Positions 3,435-25,294 of a stretch of DNA of 64,000 nucleotides are shown one piece after another. Both the position numbers and the translations under genes were made by a program. Location: positions 1,798,001 to 1,862,000 of the forward strand of contig NZ_JABTEX010000001.1 in NCBI RefSeq assembly GCF_015711645.1, given 5' to 3'. The notes beneath the pieces are model-generated. The model ran no database searches, was not told where the DNA came from, and worked only from the letters and a program-made list of their open reading frames with translations. Source of the stretch: Planomonospora sp. ID82291 (GTDB taxonomy: Bacteria; Actinomycetota; Actinomycetes; Streptosporangiales; Streptosporangiaceae). Numbering within the stretch: position 1 is the first letter of the stretch; every line of letters starts with the position of its first letter.

Positions 3435-3669
3435 GAACTACCGGGTCCGCCTCACTGGCAGACTCGATGCCTGGTAGCCGCTGGTGAGTGAGCACTCTCG
3501 CCTCCTGGACCGTGAGTCCTAGGGTCAGATCGTGCCCTCGCCGGTGGTCAGGGGTCTTGATCGCTGATGGGATGTCGTGCCCCCCGCGGGTTGGGGTGAG
3601 CACTGGTCCATTAGGTCGCCGACCGGCTCCTGCGGGCTGCTGAAACCGGTGTCGATCACGGAGGTTCGA
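3435..3669 (+). ncRNA. Candidate IS110 bridge RNA region
   Basis: In the IS110 subgroup the non-coding left end, upstream of the transposase, is transcribed into a structured bridge RNA. That RNA has two loops, one pairing with the target and one with the element's own DNA. The 238-bp non-coding stretch here has the right place and size and holds short inverted segments, but I could not fold it or assign the loops. This is an inference from family knowledge only. Confidence 0.3.
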
Positions 3670-4960
3670 ATGCTGTTCGTCGGAGATGACTGGGCTGAGG
3701 ATCACCACGATGTGGAGGTCCAGGACGAGCAGGGCCGGGTGTTGAAGCGGGTCCGGTTGCCCGAGGGGATGGCCGGGATGTCCCGCTTCCACGAGCTGGT
3801 GGGCCGGTTCGTGCCGGAGGACGGCGAGCCGGCGCAGGTGCTGGTGTGCATCGAGGTCGATCGGGGCCCGTGGGTGCGGGCGCTGCGGGCGGCGGGATAC
3901 CGGGTGTTCGGGGTGGACCCCAAGCAGGCCGCCCGGCACCGGGAGATCCTCGGCTCGTCGGGGGCCAAGAGCGACAAGGGCGACGCGCACGCGCTGGCCG
4001 ACATGATCCGTACCCGCCGTAACCAGCTGCGGGAGGTCGCCGGCGACTCCGAGGTCGCCGAGGCGGTCAAGGTCGTCACCCGCGCCCATCAGACGCTGTT
4101 GTGGGAACGCACCCGCCACATGCTCCGGCTGCGGGTGGCGTTGCGGGACTACTTCCCCGCCGCTCTGGAGGCCTACAAGCCCCTCGGCCTGACCTCGGAT
4201 GCTGCGCTGAAACTCCTGGTCAAGGCCCCCACTCCGGCGACAGCGGCGAAGCTCACCGCCGTCCAGATCGCTGCCGCGCTGAAGGGGCGGCGGGATATCC
4301 CGGCCAAGGCCGAGACGATCAAGCAGGTGCTGCGGTCCGAGCAACTGGGCCAGGCCGATCTGGTCACCGCTGCCTACGCCTCGACCGTGCGGGCACTGGC
4401 CGCGGTCATCGCCACCCTCAACACGGAGATCAAGACCCTGGAAGACGAGGTCGAGGCGCATTTTGGCCGGCACCCGGACGCTGAGGTCATCCTCAGTCAG
4501 CCCGGCATCGGCGTCGTTCTCGGCGCCCGGGTGCTCGCCGAGTTCGGAGACGCTCCCGGGCGTTATGCCAGCGCGAAGGCACGCAAGAACTATGCCGGTA
4601 CCTCGCCGGTCACCCGGCAGTCCGGTAAGACGCGGACCGTTCACGCCCGGTTCGTCCACAACGATCGGCTCGTCGACGCCCTGCACCTGCAAGCCTCCTG
4701 CGCCCTCCTGCACGACGTGGACGCCCGCGCCTACTACGACCAGATCAGAGCCCGCGACGTCAGCCACAACGCCGCCCTGCGCCAGGTCGGCAACCGCCTC
4801 GTCGGCATCCTCCACGGCTGCCTCAAGAACCACACCCTCTACGACCGGGCGACCGCCTGGTCACACCGCAACCACGACCTCGCCGCTTGACATCCAAGCT
4901 CCAGGGATGTCTGACCCTCCGATCCTGACCCTCCGACGGGCAAGGACCGGCGCCTCCCCT
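3440..4960 (+). mobile_element. IS110-family insertion sequence (ends approximate)
   Basis: A single DEDD/Ser transposase gene has a long non-coding stretch before it (3432-3669, 238 bp) and a short one after it, with a reverse-strand gene beyond. That asymmetry is typical of the IS110 subgroup. No terminal inverted repeats are expected for this family and I see none, so the ends given are estimates. It sits in the gap between the GH5 gene and a convergent gene and does not break either. Confidence 0.65.
3670..4890 (+). CDS. IS110-family transposase (DEDD/serine recombinase)
   Basis: The 406-aa protein has the family layout. An N-terminal RuvC-like DEDD domain starts with VGDDWAED (Asp6/Asp7) and CIEVDRG near residue 60. 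A central helical region follows, and then the Transposase_20 domain with SQPGIG, NYAGTSP and QSGKTRT near residues 278-322, where the family's catalytic serine lies (probably Ser318). I chose ATG 3670 because VGDDW then sits at the N-terminus as in relatives. An upstream in-frame ATG at 3577 would add 31 residues that do not look like the family. It has no frameshift and appears intact, so the element may be active. Confidence 0.92.
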   Translation: MLFVGDDWAEDHHDVEVQDEQGRVLKRVRLPEGMAGMSRFHELVGRFVPEDGEPAQVLVCIEVDRGPWVRALRAAGYRVFGVDPKQAARHREILGSSGAKSDKGDAHALADMIRTRRNQLREVAGDSEVAEAVKVVTRAHQTLLWERTRHMLRLRVALRDYFPAALEAYKPLGLTSDAALKLLVKAPTPATAAKLTAVQIAAALKGRRDIPAKAETIKQVLRSEQLGQADLVTAAYASTVRALAAVIATLNTEIKTLEDEVEAHFGRHPDAEVILSQPGIGVVLGARVLAEFGDAPGRYASAKARKNYAGTSPVTRQSGKTRTVHARFVHNDRLVDALHLQASCALLHDVDARAYYDQIRARDVSHNAALRQVGNRLVGILHGCLKNHTLYDRATAWSHRNHDLAA

Positions 4961-7147: not shown

Positions 7148-7193
7148 TGGCGCGGCCGAGAGGACTCGAACCCCTAACCTTCTGATCCGTAGT
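7148..7193. repeat. attL: 46-bp direct repeat (tRNA-Arg 3' half)
   Basis: These 46 bases are identical to 25219-25264 and diverge at the next base on the element side. They cover the encoded CCA, acceptor strand, T-arm, variable loop and the 3' side of the anticodon arm. There is no 5' half here, so this copy is not a functional tRNA. Confidence 0.93.
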
Positions 7194-7455
7194 GGAAGCC
7201 CCACACGGCTGACCCACATGCTCTGACCAGCGGGGACGCCCCGACCGGCGCACCCGTGGTCCGGATTTCGGCACGTATTCGGCATGACCAAGCTCTGAGA
7301 GCCCTTCCGGCAAGAACATCGGCGCCCCTGGCGCCTTACCTTCCCGCACCCGAGAACGGCTCTCTACGGGGCACTCAGCACCCCTGTTTACGATCAGCGC
7401 CGTCATGCGGGAGCGGTGACCGTGCTTCCGCATCCCCCCGAGTCCCGGTGAGCCG

Positions 7456-7719
7456 CCGCAGAATCCGCAGAATCCGCAGAACCCCGATGGCACGACTGCT
7501 TCCGCTGGTCATCCCCATGTCACAGCTCAGCGGGGGAGCCGCCGCAGAATGCCGCGATATTCCGCAGAATCCAGCTCGACAGCCGCCGCGCGGGGCCGTC
7601 CCCGAGTTCTGCGGGTTTCTGCGGCATTCTGCGGCTGACGGACACCGACCCGGCTGTAACCCGGTGAACTGGGAAGACGTACGCCCGCAGGGGTTCTGCG
7701 GGTTCTGCGGATTCTGCGG
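7456..7719. repeat. Symmetric array of 11 perfect TTCTGCGG/CCGCAGAA octamers
   Basis: CCGCAGAA occurs at 7456, 7465, 7474 and then 7542 and 7562, with a degenerate copy at 7552. The reverse form TTCTGCGG occurs at 7607, 7617, 7627 and then 7694, 7703, 7712. The sites form four clusters of three. The left two clusters face one way and the right two the other, and the spacing within a cluster is 9 or 10 bp. The inter-cluster gaps are about 60 bp on each side and the centre is near 7588. It occupies the non-coding DNA between attL and the first element gene (7194-7820). Candidate roles are the clt transfer locus bound by TraB, a replication origin, or an operator for the neighbouring triple-wHTH regulator. 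Confidence 0.9.
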
Positions 7720-7820
7720 CGGCTCTCCAGGGGCGGGCAGGATGGCTCACCCGGACGGCAACGGGCACCAGCGCTTACCGTCGTAGCCTGGAGGGCAATG
7801 TTCCTCAGCGAGGGAGCACG

Positions 7821-8498
7821 ATGAGTCAGAGCAACGAGCAGCCCGCTTACCTCCGAATCGCGGATGACCTCCGCTCCCGGATTCAGGCCGGCGACCCGCC
7901 GCCGGGCGGCATGCTGGGTTCCGACGCCGTCCTTGTGCGGACGTATGGCGTTGCCAGGGGCACCGTTCGACAAGCGGTCGCCGAGCTGGAGCGTCTGGGC
8001 CTGGTAGTAAGCGAGATGGGCAGGGGACGGCGCGTCGTCGGTGGGACGTCCGGTGAGCCCCCTTCCCCCTCGACGCGGTACGAGACCGTAGCCGCGGCTC
8101 TGCGTCAGGACATCGCCAGTGGCAAGCTCTCACAGGGCAGTCAGCTCCCCCGAGAGGCAATGCTGGCTGAGCAGCACGGGGTGTCCAAGGGAACCGCACG
8201 CCAGGCGCTCCAGATGCTGGCCGCCGAAGGTCGGATCACAGCGGTTCACGGTAAGGGTTGGTTCGTTGGTGACGAGCAGGGCACGCTGACCCGGACTGAC
8301 GAGGTTGCGGAGTCCATCCGGAAAGCGATTCTTGCGGGAGACTTTCCGAGAGAATCGCGCATTCCCGGGGAATCCGTTCTTGCTGAGCAGTACGGCGTAG
8401 CACGAGTTACCGTAAGACGTGCCATAGCCCTGCTGGAAGCAGAGGGAATCGTAGAGAGCAGAAGAGGGGTCGGGCGAATCGTCACCCGCTCTCCTTAA
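7821..8498 (+). CDS. Regulator with three tandem GntR-type winged-helix domains
   Basis: Three GntR-type DNA-binding domains follow one another with no effector domain: about residues 8-70 (YGVARGTVRQAVAELERLGL), 86-149 (HGVSKGTARQALQMLAAEG) and 159-223 (YGVARVTVRRAIALLEAEG). Normal GntR proteins have one such domain plus a ligand-binding domain and dimerise. Here three DNA-reading heads are carried on one 225-aa chain. In AICEs and Streptomyces plasmids KorSA/TraR-type GntR proteins repress transfer and replication genes. A start at ATG 7821 is supported by a GGGAG site. The octamer array directly upstream comes in threes, so it may be the operator. This link is inferred. Confidence 0.88.
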   Translation: MSQSNEQPAYLRIADDLRSRIQAGDPPPGGMLGSDAVLVRTYGVARGTVRQAVAELERLGLVVSEMGRGRRVVGGTSGEPPSPSTRYETVAAALRQDIASGKLSQGSQLPREAMLAEQHGVSKGTARQALQMLAAEGRITAVHGKGWFVGDEQGTLTRTDEVAESIRKAILAGDFPRESRIPGESVLAEQYGVARVTVRRAIALLEAEGIVESRRGVGRIVTRSP

Positions 8499-14848: not shown

Positions 14849-16017
14849 TGACCGCTGAATCCCCGTCCCTGACCGGCCCCCGTGCCCTGACCGAGGGCGA
14901 GCAGGCCGCCGTAGCGGTCACCACCGGCGCCGTGGGCGTGCTCGGACTGCTCGGCTTCGTCAACAGCTTCGACGGCGTCGCCGACGCCGCCGCCCCGACC
15001 TTCGGCGCCCTGGCCTGGACCGTCCCCCTCGGCATCGACCTGGGCATCGCGGTCTTCTCCGCCCTGGACATCGTGCTCGCCCGCCTCGACATGCGGGTGC
15101 GGTGGCTGCGGTTCATCCCCTGGGCGCTGACCGGCGCCACCATCTACCTCAACATCTCTCCCTACCTGGACACCCCGACCGGCGTGAACTGGTTCGGCAT
15201 CGTCTCTCACGCGCTGCTGCCCATGCTGTGGGTGGTGGCCGTGGAAGTCGGCGCGCACGTGCTGCGCAAGCGCGCCGGCCTGGCCAACCCCGAGCGCATG
15301 GAGCGCATCCGCGCCTCCCGCTGGCTGCTGGCCACCCCTTCGACGTTCGCCCTGTGGCGCCGCATGGTGCTGTGGGAGGTCCGCTCCTACCCGGTGGCGC
15401 TGGAGCGCGAGAAAGAGCGCGTGCTGGCCCGCACCGACCTTCAGGACCGGTACGGACGGCTGTGGCGCTTCAAGGCCACCCGCCGCGAGCGCGCCCTGTA
15501 CCGGCTCGGTGAGCTGGCCCCGGCCGACGCCCCGATCCACACCCCTGCTGACGCCGCCGCCCTTCACGTGGAGACCGTCCGCCTCGACCCGCCCGCCCCG
15601 GTATCCGCCGACGCCGACCGTCCGGCACTGCCGCCCGCCCCGCGCAAGCGGACCGCCGTCCCGGCTGCCTCGACCGGCCGCCGGACCGCCACCAAGCGGA
15701 CCGCGCCGCCGGACGTGGACGACCTCATGCCGATCGGCCGGACCGTGGCCGCCGACCTGACCGCCCAAGGGCTGACCGTCACCCGTGACCGGCTGATCGC
15801 CGCCATCCGAGCGAGCGGACAGTCCATCTCCACCGACCGCGCCGCCGCGCTGCTGGCCCGACTGCGCACCGACGACCCCGAGCACACCGACGAGACGCGG
15901 TCCGACCGCACATCGTCGCAGATCCGTCCCGTACGGGACGCGGCCCCCAGTCGCCAAACCGAAGCCGCGCCCCGCAACCCCGCACCCATCAACGGCAACG
16001 AGGTGACCTCATCATGA
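14848..16017 (+). CDS. DUF2637 membrane protein (Spd-like transfer protein)
   Basis: A 389-aa protein has four membrane helices in the first 150 residues, followed by a basic region and a disordered Pro/Arg/Thr-rich tail with a winged-helix-like segment near residues 300-350. DUF2637 proteins are found on most AICEs and Streptomyces conjugative plasmids beside TraB. They are thought to help intramycelial spread, the Spd function. The start overlaps the preceding stop, and the end overlaps traB by ATGA. Confidence 0.75.
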   Translation: MTAESPSLTGPRALTEGEQAAVAVTTGAVGVLGLLGFVNSFDGVADAAAPTFGALAWTVPLGIDLGIAVFSALDIVLARLDMRVRWLRFIPWALTGATIYLNISPYLDTPTGVNWFGIVSHALLPMLWVVAVEVGAHVLRKRAGLANPERMERIRASRWLLATPSTFALWRRMVLWEVRSYPVALEREKERVLARTDLQDRYGRLWRFKATRRERALYRLGELAPADAPIHTPADAAALHVETVRLDPPAPVSADADRPALPPAPRKRTAVPAASTGRRTATKRTAPPDVDDLMPIGRTVAADLTAQGLTVTRDRLIAAIRASGQSISTDRAAALLARLRTDDPEHTDETRSDRTSSQIRPVRDAAPSRQTEAAPRNPAPINGNEVTSS

Positions 16018-18296
16018 CCGACTTCCCGACCACGACCAACGGCCACCCCCCGACCGACCCGACCGCCCCCCTGGAGCTGACCGTGCTGCCGGTCCGTCCG
16101 CCGGTCGGACCGGACGGCGACGGCCCCGGCGCCGACGTGGTGCCCATCACCACCGCCCGCGACCGCCGCCACCCCTACCCGCCCACCATGACCACCCCGA
16201 CCGCCCTGACCGGTCCGGCGGACGGGCCGGTTCTGGAGGGCGACATCATCCGGGTGGACGCCCCCGGCGAGCCGGAGCGCGACTGGCTGGCCGATCTGGC
16301 GGAGAAGGCCAAGACCCGCCGCCGGATCGTGCCGCTGTGGCTGCGCTCGCGTAACGAGGCCATCGCCACCCTCAAATGGGTCTCCGCCCATTACGCCTAC
16401 GTGGCCAGCTACCAGATCACCCGCTCCCCGCTGTACGCCGGGCGCCTTCTGGCCCGCTCCCCGCGCGGTCTGGTCCGCCTAGTCGGCGGCATGGTCCGCT
16501 GGACCTTCGATCTGGAGGGCGAGCCCGTCCGCCGCGCCGCGGTGGAAAAGACCGACCCCGAGCAGTACCTGAAGCTGTCGCGCCAGCGCGACGCCCGCGT
16601 GCGGCTGCGGGTGTGGGTCTCCGGGATCGCGCTGGTCACGCTGCTGATCGCGTCCCTCCTGATGACCGCCGCGCCCACCGCGGCCCAGTGGGCGGCGCTC
16701 GCGCTGGCTCTGGCCGCCCTGGGCATCCTGGGCCGCCCGGCCGACAAGCCGCTGATCGACCGCGCGGTACTGCCCACGGTGCGCGAGAAGCTCACCAGCG
16801 ACATCGTGGTCCGGGCGCTGGGCGCGCTCGGCATCGCCGCCATCAACCAGGCCATCGCCAAGGACCCGCGCGACGGCATCAAGTTCGTCAACCCCATCCA
16901 CCGCGACGGCCCCGGCTGGCGCGCCGATATCGACCTGCCGTACGGCGTGACCGTCGCCGAGGTGATGGAAAAGCGCGACAAGCTCGCCTCCGGTCTGCGC
17001 CGCCCGCTGGGCTGCGTCTGGCCCGAGGTGGTGCCCGAGGAGCACACCGGCCGCATGCTGCTGTGGGTCGGTGACCAGGACATGAACAAGGCCAAGCAGC
17101 CCGCTTGGCCGCTGCTCAGGTCCGGGCAGGTGGACCTGTTCACGCCCACCGCGTTCGCCACCGACCAGCGGGGCCGCTGGAGCGCGCTGACGCTGATGTT
17201 CGTCTCGGTCGTCATCGGCTCCATCCCGCGCATGGGCAAGACGTTCCTGCTGCGCCTGCTGGCCCTGATCTTCGCGATGGACCCGCGCTCGGCGCTGTAC
17301 CTGTTCGACCTGAAGGGCACTGGCGACCTGTCGCCGCTGGAGTGCGTGGCCCATCGCTACCGCGCCGGCGAGGAAGACGAGGACATCACCTACGCCCTGG
17401 CCGCCATGCGCGGGCTTAAAGACGAGCTGCGCCGCCGGGCCAAGGTGATCCGGGACCTGCCCAAGGACATCTGCCCGGAGAACAAGGTCACCCCCGCCCT
17501 GGCTGGCAACAAGAGTCTGGGGCTGCACCCCATCGGCATCTTCGTGGACGAGTGCCAGGTGTGGTTCGAGCACCCCAAGCACGGCGAGGAGTTCGAGGCC
17601 ATCTGCACCGACCTGGTCAAGCGCGGCCCCGCGCTGGGGATGGTGCTGGTGGTGGCCACCCAGCGCCCGGACGCCAAGTCGCTGCCCACCGGGATCTCCG
17701 CCAACGCGGTGATCCGGCTGTGCCTAAAGGTCATGGGCCACACCGAAAACGACATGGTGCTCGGGACGTCCGCGCACAAGAACGGCATCCGGGCCACCAT
17801 GTTCTCCTTCACCGACAAGGGCATCTGCTACTTCGCCGGCGAGGGCGACAACCCCAAGATCGTGCGGTCGGTCTACATCGACGCCCCGACCGCCGAGAAG
17901 ATCGCACTGCGCGCCCGCGCCCTGCGTCAGCAGGCCGGCACCCTGTCCGGGCACGCCCTGGGCGAGGCCCCGTCCGTCGAGACCGGCCCGGCGTTCAACC
18001 TGCTGGCCGACATCGCCGCCGTGGTGCACGAGCCCAAGTGCTGGAGCGAGACCGTGGTGGCCCGCCTGGCCGAGCTGCGCCCGGAGGTCTACGGCCCCTG
18101 GATGGAGCTGGAGGGCGACGCCCGCGCCGGGCAGCTCACCACCGCTCTGAAGCCGTACGGCATCCGCACGGGCCAGGTGTGGGGCACCCCCGAGGGGGGC
18201 GGCAAGGGCGCCAACCGGCGCGGCATCGTCCGCGACGACATCACCACAGCCATCACCGAGCGTGACGGAAAGAAGGGGTCCGGGACCGGAGCCTGA
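16014..18296 (+). CDS. traB: TraB/FtsK-like conjugative DNA translocase
   Basis: This 760-aa protein has membrane helices near residues 200-245 and a RecA-like motor. Walker A is SIPRMGKTF with Lys409, and Walker B is GIFVDECQ with Asp512-Glu513. The QRPDAKSLPTGI segment follows. AICE TraB proteins form a hexameric pore at the hyphal tip and move double-stranded element DNA into the recipient. They read short repeated octamers at the clt locus through a C-terminal winged-helix domain. The last 100 residues here have the size for that domain. The octamer array at 7456-7719 is a candidate partner. Confidence 0.92.
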   Translation: MTDFPTTTNGHPPTDPTAPLELTVLPVRPPVGPDGDGPGADVVPITTARDRRHPYPPTMTTPTALTGPADGPVLEGDIIRVDAPGEPERDWLADLAEKAKTRRRIVPLWLRSRNEAIATLKWVSAHYAYVASYQITRSPLYAGRLLARSPRGLVRLVGGMVRWTFDLEGEPVRRAAVEKTDPEQYLKLSRQRDARVRLRVWVSGIALVTLLIASLLMTAAPTAAQWAALALALAALGILGRPADKPLIDRAVLPTVREKLTSDIVVRALGALGIAAINQAIAKDPRDGIKFVNPIHRDGPGWRADIDLPYGVTVAEVMEKRDKLASGLRRPLGCVWPEVVPEEHTGRMLLWVGDQDMNKAKQPAWPLLRSGQVDLFTPTAFATDQRGRWSALTLMFVSVVIGSIPRMGKTFLLRLLALIFAMDPRSALYLFDLKGTGDLSPLECVAHRYRAGEEDEDITYALAAMRGLKDELRRRAKVIRDLPKDICPENKVTPALAGNKSLGLHPIGIFVDECQVWFEHPKHGEEFEAICTDLVKRGPALGMVLVVATQRPDAKSLPTGISANAVIRLCLKVMGHTENDMVLGTSAHKNGIRATMFSFTDKGICYFAGEGDNPKIVRSVYIDAPTAEKIALRARALRQQAGTLSGHALGEAPSVETGPAFNLLADIAAVVHEPKCWSETVVARLAELRPEVYGPWMELEGDARAGQLTTALKPYGIRTGQVWGTPEGGGKGANRRGIVRDDITTAITERDGKKGSGTGA

Positions 18297-18436: not shown

Positions 18437-18655
18437 ATGGCATCCGCCATCATCCTGCTAGTCCTCTGCCTACTGATCGTCACACTCTGCTACATCGCCC
18501 GGTGCCTGATCTCCCCGTGGGGCATCTGCCGCCGGTGCGCCCCGGGCGGCAAGAACCGCACCTGCCGCGCCTGCTCCGGCACCGGGATGCGCCCCCGCAT
18601 CGGCTGGCAGCTCTACACCCACTTCCGCCGCCTCCACCGCGACGGCACCCGATGA
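18437..18655 (+). CDS. Small membrane protein with DnaJ-like Cys motif
   Basis: The 72-aa protein begins with one membrane helix (about residues 4-23). A compact cytoplasmic end contains CRRC and CRACSGTGM, the latter like one zinc-binding repeat of DnaJ. It is the first gene after the CTAG region and overlaps the next start by ATGA. Function unknown. Confidence 0.55.
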   Translation: MASAIILLVLCLLIVTLCYIARCLISPWGICRRCAPGGKNRTCRACSGTGMRPRIGWQLYTHFRRLHRDGTR

Positions 18656-19497
18656 CCGCCATGACCACGGCGCCCGCCGCTCCCACCGCATCCGGCGCCG
18701 CCCTGGAAACCTTCAGCTACGGCGGAGGCTGGCAGTCCACCGCCGCCCTCGTGCTCGCCGCCCGCGGAGAGCTGCCGTTCCGCATCTTCCTGTTCGCCAA
18801 CGTCGGCGACGACTCCGAACACCCCGCCACCCTGCGCTACATCGCCGAGCACGCCGCGCCGTTCGCCGCCGCCCACGGCATCGCCCTGCACCAGCTCGCC
18901 CGCACCCGCCGCGACGGCTCCACCGAAACCCTCTACGGTCGGCTGACCAAGCCCGGGTCCCGCTCCCTGCCGATCCCGGTCCGCATGTCCAATGGCGCCC
19001 CTGGCACCCGCTCTTGTACCGCGGACTTCAAGATCCGGGTCATCGGCCGATGGCTCAAGGCCCACGGCGCCACCGCAGACAACCCGGCCACGGTCGGTAT
19101 CGGCATCAGCGTGGACGAGATCGAACGCGCCAACAACCGGCGCTGCGAACCGCACGAGCGCATCGTCTACCCCCTGCTGGACCTGGGCATCCGGCGCGCC
19201 GACTGCCCGCGCATCATCCGCTCCGCCGACCTGCCCGTCCCGCCGAAGTCCTCGTGCTGGTTCTGCCCCTTCCACCGGCTGACCACCTGGGCGGAGATGC
19301 GCCGCAGCGAACCGGAGCTGTTCGAGCGCGCCTGCGCGCTGGAAGCCACGCTCAACGCCCGCCGGTCCGACCTCGGCAAGGACCCGGTGTGGCTCACCCG
19401 CCACGCGGCCCCGCTCGCCGACGTGGTGTCCACCGATGACGTGCTGCCGCTGGACTTCGGCGACGGCACCTGTGACTCCGGCTGGTGCTTCACATGA
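18652..19497 (+). CDS. PAPS-reductase-like (PP-loop) protein
   Basis: A 281-aa protein has a PP-loop variant near residue 24 (SYGGGWQSTAAL). A segment GTRSCTADFKIRVIGRWL near residue 120 recalls the substrate site of PAPS/adenylyl-sulfate reductases. A Cys pair CWFC near residue 203 may bind zinc. The family uses ATP or adenylyl-sulfur chemistry; members also act in DNA sulfur modification (DndC) and tRNA thiolation. There is no sulfate assimilation gene nearby. The gene stands directly before a DNA methyltransferase, which favours a role in nucleic-acid modification. That is inference. Confidence 0.7.
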   Translation: MTAMTTAPAAPTASGAALETFSYGGGWQSTAALVLAARGELPFRIFLFANVGDDSEHPATLRYIAEHAAPFAAAHGIALHQLARTRRDGSTETLYGRLTKPGSRSLPIPVRMSNGAPGTRSCTADFKIRVIGRWLKAHGATADNPATVGIGISVDEIERANNRRCEPHERIVYPLLDLGIRRADCPRIIRSADLPVPPKSSCWFCPFHRLTTWAEMRRSEPELFERACALEATLNARRSDLGKDPVWLTRHAAPLADVVSTDDVLPLDFGDGTCDSGWCFT

Positions 19498-19540
19498 CCG
19501 GCCGCCCCACTCCCGCCCCCGCTTCCCGACAGGAGACCTC

Positions 19541-21094
19541 GTGCTGACCGTCATGGACTGGTTCTGCGGAGCCGGAGGCTCGTCCCAGGGCGCGCACGCC
19601 GTGCCCGGTGTGACCGTGACCCGCGCCGCCAACCACTGGGAGATGGCCATCGCCTCCCACGCCGCCAACTTCCCCGCCACCGACCACTACCAGGGCGACA
19701 TCCGCACCGCCCCCGTGCACCGCTGGCCCGTCGCCGACCTCTTCTGGGCCTCCCCCGAGTGCCCGAAGTGGAGCCGCGCCCGCGGCAAGCGCCGCGACTT
19801 CCACAACACCCGCCAGGGCTCCCTGTTCGAGGTGCCCGGCACCGCCCGGTCCGCCGAGGACGAGCGCTCTCGCGCCCTCATGGAGGAGGTCCCGCTCTAC
19901 CTGGAGGGCGTGGCCGCGCGCGGCGGGCGGGTGCTGGCCGGCGTGGTCGAGAACGTCATCGACTGCCGCGCCTGGGACGCCTGGAACACCTGGATCGGCC
20001 GTATCCACGCCCTGGGCTACCGCACGCGGATCATCGCCCTGAACAGCATGCACGCCCGCCCGGTCCGCACCCCGGCCGCCCCGCAGTCCCGGGACCGGCT
20101 GTACGTCGCCTACTGGCACGAGTCGATCGGCAGGACCCCGGACTGGGACAAGTGGCTCCGCCCCAAGGCGTGGTGCCCGTCCTGCGGCCAGCGCATCGAC
20201 GCCGTCCAGGTGTTCAAGGACCCGCGCCGGGACATGGGCCGCTACCGCCAGCAGTACCTCTACCGCTGCCCGCACACCGCCTGCCGGGGCGCGGTGGTCG
20301 AACCCGAGGTGCTCCCGGCCGCCGCCGCGATCGACTGGAGTCTTCCCGGCACCCGGATCGGCGACCGGGACGAGCCGCTCGCCGACGCGACGATGGAGCG
20401 CATCCGCGCCGGGATCGCCCGCTACTGGGGGCCCATCCTGGCCCCGGCCGGCGGTACCTGGCGCGACCAGGCCAGCCCGATCAACGCGCCGATGCCCACC
20501 CGCACCACCCGCGAGAACGACGGTCTGGCCGTTCCGCCGCTGCTGGTCCCGGTCGAAGGCCGCGACGGCAAGACCGCAAGCCCGGCCGCGCTGCCGCTGC
20601 GCACCCAGACCACCCGCAATGAGACCGGTCTGGCCTTCCCCGACGCGGCGGGGGCGTTCATCGCGGAGTTGCGGGGCGGGGGTTCGGTGGCGCGGCCGGT
20701 GGCCGACGCGCTGGCCACGGTGACCGCCTCCGGCAACCACCACGGCCTGGTCACGGCGCCCGACGAGTCGGGCGCGCTGCTGGTGCCGTACTACGGCACC
20801 AGCACCGCCTGCCCCGCCGCTCAGCCGGTGGGCGCGCTGACCACCCGCGACCGCTACGGCCTGGCCCACCCCGGCGACGCGGAAGCGATCGACCTGGACG
20901 ACGTGCGGTTCCGGATGCTGGAACCCGCCGAGATCGGCCGCGCCATGGCCTTCGGCGACGGCTACCGGGTGCTGGGCAACAAGCGGCAGCGGGTGCGCCA
21001 GTACGGCAACGCCGTCACCCCGCCCGTGGCCGAGGTCCTCATCTCCGCCCTGGTCGAAGCCATCACCGGCACCGACCTGGAGGTGGCCGCATGA
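19541..21094 (+). CDS. C5-cytosine DNA methyltransferase with zinc-ribbon insert
   Basis: This 517-aa protein has the C5-methyltransferase motifs in order: I (FCGAGGSSQG), IV (SPECPKWS, with the catalytic Cys in place of the usual PCQ), VI (VENVIDC), VIII (QSRDRLYVAYW) and X (YGNAVTPPVAE). The target-recognition part contains a CPSC...CPHTAC zinc ribbon near residues 212-250. The GTG at 19541 follows AGGAGA and is chosen over upstream ATGs without a site. No restriction endonuclease is encoded beside it, so it probably protects or marks the element, perhaps against host restriction after transfer. Confidence 0.85.
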   Translation: MLTVMDWFCGAGGSSQGAHAVPGVTVTRAANHWEMAIASHAANFPATDHYQGDIRTAPVHRWPVADLFWASPECPKWSRARGKRRDFHNTRQGSLFEVPGTARSAEDERSRALMEEVPLYLEGVAARGGRVLAGVVENVIDCRAWDAWNTWIGRIHALGYRTRIIALNSMHARPVRTPAAPQSRDRLYVAYWHESIGRTPDWDKWLRPKAWCPSCGQRIDAVQVFKDPRRDMGRYRQQYLYRCPHTACRGAVVEPEVLPAAAAIDWSLPGTRIGDRDEPLADATMERIRAGIARYWGPILAPAGGTWRDQASPINAPMPTRTTRENDGLAVPPLLVPVEGRDGKTASPAALPLRTQTTRNETGLAFPDAAGAFIAELRGGGSVARPVADALATVTASGNHHGLVTAPDESGALLVPYYGTSTACPAAQPVGALTTRDRYGLAHPGDAEAIDLDDVRFRMLEPAEIGRAMAFGDGYRVLGNKRQRVRQYGNAVTPPVAEVLISALVEAITGTDLEVAA

Positions 21095-21987
21095 ACGCCC
21101 CCGAGCTGCTCCGCTACGCCCTGGCCTGCGCCGCCCGCGGCTGGCACGTCTTCCCCGTCGCTCCCGGCGACAAGCGGCCCGTCAAGGGCTTCACCGACTG
21201 GGAGCGCCACGCCACCGCCGACCCCGCCCTCATCCGGCGCGTCTGGTCGCACACGCCGTTCAACATCGGCGTCGCCTGCGGCCCGTCCCGCCTGGTCGTG
21301 ATCGACCTGGACATGCCCAAGCCCGACCAGACGCCCCCGCCCGTGTGGGACCTGCCCGGCATCGTGGACGGTTCGGCCGTCTTCACCCACCTGTGCGAGC
21401 AGGCACGGCAGCCCCGGCCCGACCGCACGTTCACCGTGCTGACCCGCCGCCGCGGCGCGCACCTGTACTTCACCGCCCCGGTAGGGGTGCGGCTGCGCAA
21501 CACCAGCGGCACCCTGGGATGGCTGATCGACACCCGCGCCTGCGGCGGCTACGTCGTCGGCCCCGGCAGCCACGTCACCCTGCCCGACGGCACCGGCGCC
21601 TACTGCGTGCTGGACGCCTCAGAGCCCGCGCCGCTGCCCGAATGGCTGGTCGCCCGACTCGCCGTTCCCGACCCGCCCCCGCCGTCCGCCGCGCCGGTGC
21701 CCCTGCCGTACGACGGGCAGCGGCCCACCCGCTACGCCCTGGCCGCCCTGCACGGCGAGACCGAGCGCGTCCGCACCGCCGCGCCCGGCTCCCGCAACCA
21801 CACCCTGAACGCCGCCGCGTTCGCCCTCGGCCAGCTCGTCGGCGCCGGACTCCTGCCCCGCCCGCTCGCCGAAGACGCCCTCACCAGCGCGGGTCACGCC
21901 GCCGGGCTCCCGCCGCGCGAGGTGGCTGCGACCATCCGATCCGGCCTGGACGCCGGCCAGCGCCGCCCCCGGCAGGGCGCCGCATGA
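21091..21987 (+). CDS. Prim-Pol (bifunctional primase/polymerase) of the AICE
   Basis: A 298-aa archaeo-eukaryotic primase-type protein has the catalytic acids IDLD at residues 71-74 (Asp72, Asp74). It also has the RRGAHLYF strand, the third acid in LIDTRACGGYVV and the conserved GPGSHV turn. Prim-Pol proteins start AICE replication after excision. It is coupled to the methyltransferase and to the next gene by ATGA overlaps. A short alpha-helical C-terminal domain (about residues 215-298) is typical. Confidence 0.88.
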   Translation: MNAPELLRYALACAARGWHVFPVAPGDKRPVKGFTDWERHATADPALIRRVWSHTPFNIGVACGPSRLVVIDLDMPKPDQTPPPVWDLPGIVDGSAVFTHLCEQARQPRPDRTFTVLTRRRGAHLYFTAPVGVRLRNTSGTLGWLIDTRACGGYVVGPGSHVTLPDGTGAYCVLDASEPAPLPEWLVARLAVPDPPPPSAAPVPLPYDGQRPTRYALAALHGETERVRTAAPGSRNHTLNAAAFALGQLVGAGLLPRPLAEDALTSAGHAAGLPPREVAATIRSGLDAGQRRPRQGAA

Positions 21988-23507
21988 GCACCGACAACGC
22001 CGCGCCCTGGCCCGACGAGCAGCCCGCCGCGCCGCGCACCTGGGAGACCCCGGTGCCGCTCGGTGCCCGGCCCGCGCTGCCCGTCTTCCCCGCCCACGTC
22101 TTCCCGAGCTGGCTCGCCGACTTCGTGAACGCGCTGGCGGAGGAGACCCAGACCCCGCCGGACCTGCCCGGCTGCACCGCCCTGGCCGCCATCTCCACGG
22201 CCGCCGGCGGGCGCGCCCTGGTCACCGTCCGGGGCACCTGGTCCGAGCCGGTCAACATCTACACCGTGGTGGCCATGCCGCCCGGCTCCCGCAAGTCCCC
22301 GGTGTTCCGCGCGATCGTCTCCCCGCTGCTGGCCGCCGAGAAGATCCTTCAGGAGCAGGTCAAACCGCAGATCACCGAAGCGCGCATCGCGCAGAAGGTC
22401 GCCCAGGAAGCCGCGGAGAAGGCCACCCACAAGGCCACCACCGCCCGCGGGGAGGCCATGCCCGCCGCGCTGGCCGAAGCCCAAAGCGCCGCCCTGGCCG
22501 TGGACTCCATCACGGTGCCGGTAGAGCCCCGGCTGGTCTCCGACGACGCCACCCCGGAGACCGCCACGACCCTGCTCACCGAGCAGGGCGGGCGGCTCGC
22601 CGTGCTCAGCGCCGAGGGCGGCATCTTCGCCACCCTGGCCGGCCGCTACTCCGGCACCCCGAACCTGGACCTGTTCCTCAAAGGCCACGCCGGAGACCTG
22701 CTGATTGTGGACCGGCGCGACCGCCGCGAACGCGTCGACAACCCCGCCCTGACGCTCGGACTCGCCGTCCAACCCGAGATCATCACCGAGATCGCCAAGT
22801 CCCCGGGGTTCCGCGGCAAAGGGCTGCTGGGCCGCATCCTCTACAGCCTGCCCGCCTCCAACGTCGGATTCCGCACCATCGAACCGGACCCGATCCCGGA
22901 GCTGGTGACCGCGACCTACGCCACGAACCTGGAACGGCTCGTGCTGACCATGCACGGCTGGACCGACCCCGCCCGCCTGGTCCTGTCGCCGGAGGCCGCC
23001 GAGCTGTTCGCCGAGCAGCGCCGCCACACCGAACCCCGGTTGCGCCCGCACACCGGCGACCTGGGCCACATCGCCGACTGGGCCGCCAAGTTCGACGGCG
23101 CGGTTGCCCGGCTCGCCGGACTGCTGCACCTGGCCGGCCACATCGAAGACGGCTGGCGCCACCCCATCGACGGCGCCACCATGGCCGCCGCGATGGAGCT
23201 CGGCGAGTACTTCACCGCCCACGCGCTGGCCGCCTTCGACGCCATGGGCGCCGACCCCGAGCAGGAAGCCGCCCGCACCCTCCACGAATGGCTCACCCGC
23301 ACCCGACCCGAGCGATTCACGGTCCGGGAGGCATTCACCGCGCTCCCGCGGAGCCGCTTTCGCAAGGTCGCCGATCTGGAACCGGCCCTCGAACTGCTGG
23401 AGCAACTCGGCTGGATTCAGCGCGAGCCCGAACCACCCCGCACCGGTCCCGGCCGCCGACCTTCACCCCGCTACGCCGTCCACCCCGACCTGCACCGCCC
23501 CGCCTGA
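21984..23507 (+). CDS. DUF3987 replication-associated protein
   Basis: The 507-aa protein contains a P-loop-like MPPGSRKSPVFRAI near residue 97, an alpha-helical coiled region (about 115-175) and SAEGGIFATLAGRY near residue 210. The last 70 residues look like a winged helix. DUF3987 proteins accompany Prim-Pol in AICEs and are thought to be the helicase-like partner in replication. The signature lysine of a true Walker A is followed by Ser, as in the family. Confidence 0.8.
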   Translation: MSTDNAAPWPDEQPAAPRTWETPVPLGARPALPVFPAHVFPSWLADFVNALAEETQTPPDLPGCTALAAISTAAGGRALVTVRGTWSEPVNIYTVVAMPPGSRKSPVFRAIVSPLLAAEKILQEQVKPQITEARIAQKVAQEAAEKATHKATTARGEAMPAALAEAQSAALAVDSITVPVEPRLVSDDATPETATTLLTEQGGRLAVLSAEGGIFATLAGRYSGTPNLDLFLKGHAGDLLIVDRRDRRERVDNPALTLGLAVQPEIITEIAKSPGFRGKGLLGRILYSLPASNVGFRTIEPDPIPELVTATYATNLERLVLTMHGWTDPARLVLSPEAAELFAEQRRHTEPRLRPHTGDLGHIADWAAKFDGAVARLAGLLHLAGHIEDGWRHPIDGATMAAAMELGEYFTAHALAAFDAMGADPEQEAARTLHEWLTRTRPERFTVREAFTALPRSRFRKVADLEPALELLEQLGWIQREPEPPRTGPGRRPSPRYAVHPDLHRPA

Positions 23508-23530: not shown

Positions 23531-23725
23531 ATGGCCACGGCCAAGCCGAGAGGAACGCTCACCCTCGCCGAACTCTGCGAGGAGCTCCAGATCTCCCGGT
23601 CCACCTTCTACGACTGGCGCGCGAAAGGGCGTGCCCCGCGCTGCCTGAAGCTCCCCAATGGGGACCTCCGCATCCGCCGCGCCGACTTCGAGCGGTGGCT
23701 TAACGCTCTGGAGGACGCCGCCTGA
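23531..23725 (+). CDS. xis: Excisionase (AlpA/MerR-type HTH)
   Basis: The 64-aa basic protein is a single helix-turn-helix of the excisionase type (LAELCEELQISRSTFYDWRA). It ends in TGATG overlapping the integrase start. Xis bends DNA at the attachment sites and turns the integrase towards excision. Confidence 0.88.
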   Translation: MATAKPRGTLTLAELCEELQISRSTFYDWRAKGRAPRCLKLPNGDLRIRRADFERWLNALEDAA

Positions 23726-25167
23726 TGAAGGACATCACCTACAACGTCCGCGTCTACAAGACCGAGGTCTACAAGGGCGCCAAGGTCACCACCTACTACG
23801 TCCGGTGGAAGACGGACAGCAAGCCGTGGAAGAAGGCGTTCCGGAACCGCGCGCAGAGCGAGACCTACCGGAGCGGTCTCGTCACCGCCGCGCGCACTGG
23901 GGAGGCTTTCAGCCTGGACACCGGCGAGCCCGTCTCATGGGGCCGCACGAGTCAGGCGGAAATGAACTGGTACGACTTCGCCTGCGCCTACGTGGACATG
24001 AAGTGGAAGGACGCATCCGCCAAGCACCGCGCCGGTATCGCCTACGCGCTGGCGCTGGCCACGCCCGCGATGCTGAACGGCACGACGGGCCCCTACAACG
24101 CCAAGGAGATCCGGACCGCGCTCCGCCGGTGGGGATTCAACACCAAGGAACGCAAGGACTGCCCGGAGCGGACGGCCGACGTCCTGGCGTGGGTGACGCG
24201 CAACAGCCTGCCGGTTTCCGCGCTCATGGCGCCCGCCACCGCGCGAGCACTGCTCAACGCCGCCACGTCCCGGCTCGACGGCAAGCGGGTCGCCGCGAGC
24301 ACCTCCCGCAAGCACCGGACCATCCTGTCCAACGCAATGGCCTACGCCGTGGAGATGAAGCTCCTGAGCAGGAATCCCATCCCCGACCTGAAGTGGAAGG
24401 CGACCAAGACCACCTCACAAGTGGACCGGCGATCCGTCGTCAACCCCGACCAGGCTCGCGCCCTGCTGCAAGCCGTACGGGAGCAGAAGCCGAGCGGCCC
24501 CCTGCTCATGCCGTTCTTCGCCGTCATCTACTTCGCCGGCCTGCGTCCTGAGGAGGCCGTCAACCTCCGTGAGAAGAACCTGACCCTGCCGGACGCTCCG
24601 GGCGTCTGGGGTGAGCTGTACTTCAGCAGAGCCACCCCGGACGCGGGCAGGGAGTGGACCGACACCGGTGAGCAGCGCGACGACCGCGGCCTGAAGCACC
24701 GTCCCGAGGGTGAGAGCCGCCCGGTCCCGTGCGCCCCCGAACTCGTGACCATCCTGGGTGAGCACCTCAAGACCTTCGGCGCCGGTCCGGACGGACGGAT
24801 CTTCTACGGCGCGCACGGCGGCGTGCTGGCCACCAGCACCATCCAACGCGTCTGGGACAAGGCACGCCGCGCCGCCCTCAGCCCGGAGGAGTACACCTCA
24901 CCGCTGGCCAAGCGCGTCTACGACCTCCGGCATGCGTGCCTGTCCACCTGGCTCAACGCGGGCGTCTCACCGAAGCAGGTGGCCGAGTGGGCGGGCAACA
25001 GCGTGGAAGTGCTCTTGCGCACCTACGCCAAGTGCCTCGTCGGTCAGGATGAGGTCTCCATGCGCCGGATCAGCGAAGTTCTGAGGCAGGAACCTTCGGC
25101 ACGCATTCGGCACGATCAACCGGAGTCAACGGACGACGGCCGGACACAGCCGGACACCGGCAACTGA
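23725..25167 (+). CDS. int: Tyrosine-recombinase integrase of the AICE
   Basis: The 480-aa protein has an arm-binding domain, a SAM-like core-binding domain (about 70-220) and a catalytic domain. Catalytic Arg274 is in FAGLRPEEAV, Arg402 in VYDLRHACLS, and the nucleophile is Tyr434 in LRTYAKC. The usual His of HxLR is Tyr here (YDLR), a change seen in some actinobacterial integrases. It should cut and rejoin in the tRNA anticodon-loop region shared by attL and attR. It lies 52 bp from attR, the usual arrangement. Confidence 0.93.
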   Translation: MKDITYNVRVYKTEVYKGAKVTTYYVRWKTDSKPWKKAFRNRAQSETYRSGLVTAARTGEAFSLDTGEPVSWGRTSQAEMNWYDFACAYVDMKWKDASAKHRAGIAYALALATPAMLNGTTGPYNAKEIRTALRRWGFNTKERKDCPERTADVLAWVTRNSLPVSALMAPATARALLNAATSRLDGKRVAASTSRKHRTILSNAMAYAVEMKLLSRNPIPDLKWKATKTTSQVDRRSVVNPDQARALLQAVREQKPSGPLLMPFFAVIYFAGLRPEEAVNLREKNLTLPDAPGVWGELYFSRATPDAGREWTDTGEQRDDRGLKHRPEGESRPVPCAPELVTILGEHLKTFGAGPDGRIFYGAHGGVLATSTIQRVWDKARRAALSPEEYTSPLAKRVYDLRHACLSTWLNAGVSPKQVAEWAGNSVEVLLRTYAKCLVGQDEVSMRRISEVLRQEPSARIRHDQPESTDDGRTQPDTGN

Positions 25168-25218: not shown

Positions 25219-25264
25219 TGGCGCGGCCGAGAGGACTCGAACCCCTAACCTTCTGATCCGTAGT
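25219..25264. repeat. attR: 46-bp direct repeat within tRNA-Arg
   Basis: Identical to 7148-7193. This copy joins the native 5' half of the tRNA, so the gene remains whole after integration. Confidence 0.93.
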
Positions 25265-25294
25265 CAGATGCTCTATCCATTGAGCTACGGCCGC
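25219..25294 (-). tRNA. tRNA-Arg(ACG)
   Basis: Read on the minus strand, a 73-nt cloverleaf plus encoded CCA folds fully: acceptor GCGGCCG/CGGCCGC, D-arm GCTC/GAGC, anticodon stem TCTGA/TCAGA with loop CTACGGA (anticodon ACG), and T-arm AGGGG/CCTCT around TTCGAGT. The first anticodon base would be deaminated to inosine. It is the integration site of the AICE. Confidence 0.97.

Follow-up and report, generated by a model that had tools for sequence, protein, structure and literature searches.

Which protein reads the mirror-symmetric array of octamers at positions 7456-7719 of a 64,000-nucleotide stretch of Planomonospora sp. ID82291 (contig NZ_JABTEX010000001.1; hereafter the window), and to what end? 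The array lies within an actinomycete integrative and conjugative element (AICE). A preliminary description of the locus had likened its layout to that of bidirectional origins and had named three candidate readers, namely the translocase TraB (acting on a clt transfer locus), a protein with three winged helix-turn-helix (wHTH) domains and a primase/polymerase (Prim-Pol). The array instead follows a protein missing from that list, the DUF3987 replicase. We consider it likely that the array is an iteron-type replication origin of the AICE, read by the DUF3987 protein that the element itself encodes; the distribution of the array among related elements speaks for DUF3987 and against TraB/clt, the triple-wHTH protein and Prim-Pol. 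An AICE needs an origin and brings its own replication initiator (PMC3218068), and a role as replicative helicase of mobile elements has been predicted for DUF3987 (PMC5862659).

The 264 bp of the array hold eleven perfect copies of TTCTGCGG, five on the minus strand (at 7456, 7465, 7474, 7542 and 7562) and six on the plus strand (at 7607, 7617, 7627, 7694, 7703 and 7712), together with a degenerate twelfth octamer, TATCGCGG, at 7552-7559 on the minus strand. Outside the array, the window contains one further copy of TTCTGCGG (shuffled sequences average 1.97 per window), and the Poisson estimate for at least eleven copies in 264 bp is ~2.5e-31. Our recount bears out the four clusters of three given in the preliminary description, the left two on the minus strand and the right two on the plus strand, with every octamer facing away from the array centre. 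The outer clusters (7456-7481 and 7694-7719) each consist of three perfect octamers at a spacing of 9 bp; the spacing is 10 bp in the inner clusters, of which the left (7542-7569) has the degenerate octamer between two perfect ones and the right (7607-7634) has three perfect copies. Successive clusters are separated by 60, 37 and 59 bp, such that the near-equal gaps of 60 bp described earlier hold for the outer intervals and not for the central one, a GC-rich segment at 7570-7606. The six mirrored octamer pairs have centres at 7587.5-7588.0, a common centre within 0.5 bp, which makes the array a near-exact mirror. Opposed, equally spaced sites of the kind expected at a double-hexamer origin are thus present, both here (centres within 0.5 bp) and in G312, an element from another genus of the family (within 1 bp). 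The repeats are also short, clustered, regularly spaced and in non-coding DNA, as in iteron origins. The array is situated between the left attachment repeat, attL, and the triple-wHTH gene, which starts at 7821, and no family-matched gene overlaps it, in keeping with the earlier remark that no coding feature accounts for it. A promoter scan of 7194-7830 found none, and a blastn comparison of the array with plasmids gave no match.

A group of syntenic Nonomuraea AICEs, reached via relatives of the triple-wHTH protein, differs in the replicase that its members carry. Four of these elements (L016, L020, L023 and L024) contain the array with cluster spacing and orientation as in the window, although for L016 only the right half was found, on a 6-kb contig; their replicase is a DUF3987 protein 68-72% identical to that of the window, which for L016 sits on a separate contig (L083) of the same genome. 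Four others (L017, L018, L019 and L021) have the backbone in common (triple-wHTH protein 59-62%, TraB 57-59% and integrase 42-44% identical to those of the window) and an extra GntR gene too, their replicase is of the DUF3631 (RepAM) type (5e-67 for L018), and the array is absent. The regulator, TraB and integrase of these array-less elements are as close to those of the window as are the equivalents in the array-bearing Nonomuraea elements, or closer. On a two-cluster position-weight score, array loci reached 27-86 and the DUF3631 elements 0.7-11.9; the maximum was 10.3 among 29 unrelated loci and 13.5 among shuffled sequences. Separately, one Nonomuraea contig (G349:C82, L069/L021) appears to hold adjacent AICEs, the end of a DUF3987-type element lying beside a DUF3631-type one.

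The array is also found in elements in which other components have been exchanged. G312 possesses the four-cluster mirror, with cluster spacings of 86/64/86 against 86/65/87 in the window, 224 bp from its att repeat, and its DUF3987 protein is 88.7% identical to that of the window; no Prim-Pol match was found in it below E = 0.3, its only GntR domain is a single one of 38% identity, and in place of TraB it has a protein of the FtsK_gamma type that is unrelated to the TraB of the window. Arrays are likewise present in L076 and L104, where DUF3987 is 72% and TraB 42-43% identical and the retrieved parts have no triple-wHTH match. These two belong to a set in which DUF3987 relatives were sought first, in part by two genus-wide searches, and arrays were looked for afterwards. 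All six elements reached in this manner (L076, L104, L157, G255, G258 and G259) carry the array, with TraB identities of 28-57%. Three of the six (G255, G258 and G259) come from genus g55 and have DUF3987 proteins 61-64% identical over local alignments; in G259, a full mirror array adjoins a tRNA 3' end and TraB is only 28% identical. The IMG/VR contig L157 (DUF3987 56%) contains, immediately beyond the stop codon of its DUF3987 gene, a compact mirror of 3+3 octamers, followed by xis and int. The octamer extends to G248 (DUF3987 47%) and G130 (45%), and in the latter an array accompanies a fusion replicase (L203 10794-12941) composed of a DnaB N-terminal domain (2.4e-29) and DUF3987.

The array, with its symmetry, is therefore conserved in association with one DUF3987 clade, and such coupling of the repeats to a single replicase family is a further feature of iteron origins. 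When elements found through the array itself are excluded, the array occurs in 10/10 intact elements with a close DUF3987, four reached via the regulator (G344/L016, L020, L023 and L024) and six via DUF3987, and in 0/9 elements with other replicases (the four DUF3631 elements, L149, G262, G232, G269 and G290); Fisher's test with array-found elements included gives p = 6.7e-5, and both this value and the counts ignore relatedness. Elements interrupted by contig ends (G349, G272 and L022) are not among the intact ones. Several matches to the triple-octamer pattern lay elsewhere: those in L119, and probably L121, fall in repetitive coding sequence and hence are not arrays, and no element gene was found in L004, L005, L007, L008 or L010.

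Several observations weigh against the assignment of the array as a DUF3987-read origin. The GC content is 0.57-0.73 over 7200-7820, with no AT-rich unwinding element at the mirror centre or beside the repeats, and a search of the element for DnaA-like boxes, allowing up to 1 mismatch, found none. The missing AT-rich element counts against origin function, though not decisively, the host being itself GC-rich. In L020, L023 and L024, the array halves are separated by ~1.2 kb that contain a GntR gene and one other gene; this split and the GC-rich centre show that the two sides of the array need not adjoin. L025 has an array, and DUF3987 was not found in its genome. Conversely, two degenerate elements with a close DUF3987 lack the array, one without TraB (G345:C55) and one frameshifted (G285). 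Finally, the octamer array is missing from the plasmid L149 (DUF3987 53%, TraB 57-59%), and the window's octamer from G262, G232, G269 and G290 (DUF3987 47-50%, three of them with TraB at 52-54%). Because L149 and several elements at 47-50% identity lack the octamer, yet G248 and G130 have it, octamer recognition would seem to drift within the DUF3987 family. A de novo repeat search in elements with 44-48% DUF3987 relatives yielded no convincing alternative octamer array.

The proposed reader is a 507-residue protein encoded at 21984-23507 on the plus strand (PF13148, 9e-105), and the partner of this replicase, a Prim-Pol of 298 residues, is encoded at 21091-21987 on the same strand (PF09250, 5.3e-43). 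In the AlphaFold model of the DUF3987 protein, the C-terminal ~80 residues (about 425-505) form a winged helix with a pLDDT of ~80, and the remainder is weak (mean 59). The helicase core is poorly modelled; Foldseek returned winged-helix matches and, more weakly, MCM and ORC matches, the latter all with E > 0.1. A motif like FTxREAFTALPRxRFRK near the recognition helix is common to the array-bearing DUF3987 proteins; L149, which has no array, and most relatives of 44-48% identity depart from it. From these data we infer that the DUF3987 protein binds the octamers and that the array has origin activity. In the mechanism we envisage, DUF3987 protomers would bind the outward-facing octamers via the C-terminal winged helix; the six sites of each half (the inner three at 10-bp and the outer three at 9-bp spacing) would nucleate one helicase assembly, the mirror layout would orient the two resulting assemblies in opposite directions, and both divergent forks would be primed by Prim-Pol. 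Because there are six sites per side, pointing in opposed directions, the layout suggests loading of two helicase assemblies and replication in both directions, and the origin is probably bidirectional, which supports the likeness to bidirectional origins drawn in the preliminary description. We offer only tentatively the further idea that the twelve octamers represent 2 x 6 sites that load two back-to-back DUF3987 hexamers, in which case the initiator would be the replicative helicase itself and the DNA would encode both subunit number and direction.

The array could alternatively be a clt locus, read through the C-terminal wHTH of TraB (760 residues, 16014-18296, plus strand; PF01580, FtsK/SpoIIIE-type). 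The TraB proteins of Streptomyces plasmids recognize 8-bp motifs that occur in repeats (PMC4170104; PMC3583192), and the octamers here are repeated and directional. The array is nonetheless absent from L017, L018, L019, L021 and L149, all with TraB at 57-59% identity, and present with TraB at only 28-43% (G259, L076 and L104, and L157) or with the unrelated FtsK of G312. Mean TraB identity is 44% in array-bearing and 53% in array-less elements, hence not higher where the array occurs. Array presence does not follow TraB, and we reject this reading as very unlikely. An operator of the triple-wHTH regulator (225 residues, 7821-8498, plus strand) would account for clusters of three, one octamer for each GntR-type domain, and the gene begins 102 bp downstream of the array. 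Against this assignment, the four DUF3631 elements have a close regulator, as well as the extra GntR gene, and no array; a triple-wHTH match is absent from the retrieved parts of the array-bearing G312, G259, L076, L104 and L157; and the L016 array is 1.4 kb from the regulator gene. The operator is accordingly rejected as highly improbable. The search of AICEs with close traB or regulator genes for the array, which the preliminary description had suggested, thus went against both proteins, and Prim-Pol is discarded as the reader since G312 has the array without a Prim-Pol match.

Proximity to the attachment site raises the possibility of accessory (arm-type) sites for integrase or excisionase beside attP, and an att repeat or the 3' end of a tRNA indeed lies 200-350 bp from the array in the window, G312, G248 and G259. 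Among Nonomuraea elements, however, integrase identity to the window's is 42-44% without the array and 39-45% with it, and the L157 array is located between DUF3987 and xis. A large exact mirror would also be unusual for arm sites. With equally similar integrases in array-less elements, we reject arm sites as exceedingly improbable. The replicase might instead bind the array as a control or partition site (a locus for copy-number handcuffing or incompatibility) distinct from the start site itself. Iterons often also control copy number, and the GC-rich centre and the 1.2-kb separation of the Nonomuraea halves would suit such a role; as the replication module requires an origin and a second candidate array was seen in none of the elements, we regard a control site as unlikely.

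The element that houses the candidate origin is an 18.1-kb AICE, as the preliminary description had recognized, bounded by an exact 46-bp direct repeat of the 3' part of tRNA-Arg: attL at 7148-7193, and attR at 25219-25264 within tRNA-Arg(acg) (25219-25294). It combines an integrase and att repeats at a tRNA with an FtsK/SpoIIIE-type translocase and a replication module of Prim-Pol and DUF3987. The array lies 263 bp inward of attL and, in the excised circle, would be downstream of the DUF3987 gene, ~2 kb away on the other side of attP. A small HTH protein (64 residues, 23531-23725, plus strand), a probable excisionase judging from position and sequence only, precedes the tyrosine integrase (480 residues, 23725-25167, plus strand; PF00589 9.9e-6, just under the curated cut-off), which adjoins tRNA-Arg. 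The gene content also includes an APH-type kinase, an NsdA-family regulator and DUF2637. In the triple-wHTH protein, three GntR-type winged helices stand in tandem and there is no effector domain; the protein is 57-62% conserved in Nonomuraea AICEs. At 18502-21094, a PP-loop/PAPS-reductase-like gene, judged as such by its sequence, adjoins a C-5 cytosine methyltransferase-like gene; G312 also encodes a PAPS-reductase domain protein. An IS110-type transposase gene (3577-4887) lies just beyond the AICE.

CRISPR arrays enclose or adjoin two Nonomuraea AICEs of this DUF3987 clade: L076 (G346:C59; 14-103 and 12261 onward), flanked by repeats on both sides, and L104 (13858 onward). The CRISPR repeat is 29 bp long, GGGACCATCCCCGCGTGCGCGGGGAGCAC, with a period of 61, and further integrase genes adjoin CRISPR arrays on the same contigs (L077 5750-6394 and L105 4935-6290). 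Some integrase lineage may use the CRISPR repeat as attB.

Few origins of AICEs with a Prim-Pol have been charted, and DUF3987, whose predicted activity is that of a helicase, still counts as a domain of unknown function; no published DUF3987-type AICE origin or AICE iterons were found in the open-access literature searched. With a compact, symmetric candidate origin that tracks DUF3987 from genus to genus, origin and protein can both be assayed directly; its distribution also sets replication apart from transfer signals in AICEs, and vectors that replicate in Nonomuraea and related producers of antibiotics could be built on it. Short opposed repeats are read by the helicase's own DNA-binding domain in SV40 T antigen, papillomavirus E1 and the alpha/crr system of phage P4. 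DUF3987 is of an unrelated family, no AT-rich element is seen in the AICE and the double hexamer is here a proposal. The clt/TRS loci of Streptomyces plasmids (pSVH1, pIJ101, pJV1 and pWTY27) resemble the window array as clustered short repeats in a conjugative element, and differ in that the window array follows the replicase rather than TraB, is an exact mirror and has another sequence; clt sites are hard to find in AICEs, with none described for pSAM2 (PMC9513070). By description, the module resembles the SLP1-type one, in which Prim-Pol SCO4617 pairs with SCO4618 (RepPP) and two regions are reported as important for replication (PMC3218068). The closest experimental precedent is the palindromic 8-bp iteron of the Streptomyces plasmid pWTY27, a repeat that occurs on either strand in an extended inverted arrangement and is bound by RepA (522 residues), which works with RepB, a predicted primase/polymerase, and supports bidirectional replication (PMC3583192). 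The pWTY27 octamer is GTGGGAAC, and its iteron adjoins repA and has ~5 repeats per strand without the 4x3 geometry; the two systems are alike in their 8-bp repeats, inverted layout and Prim-Pol-like partner, with RepA and DUF3987 likened by description only.
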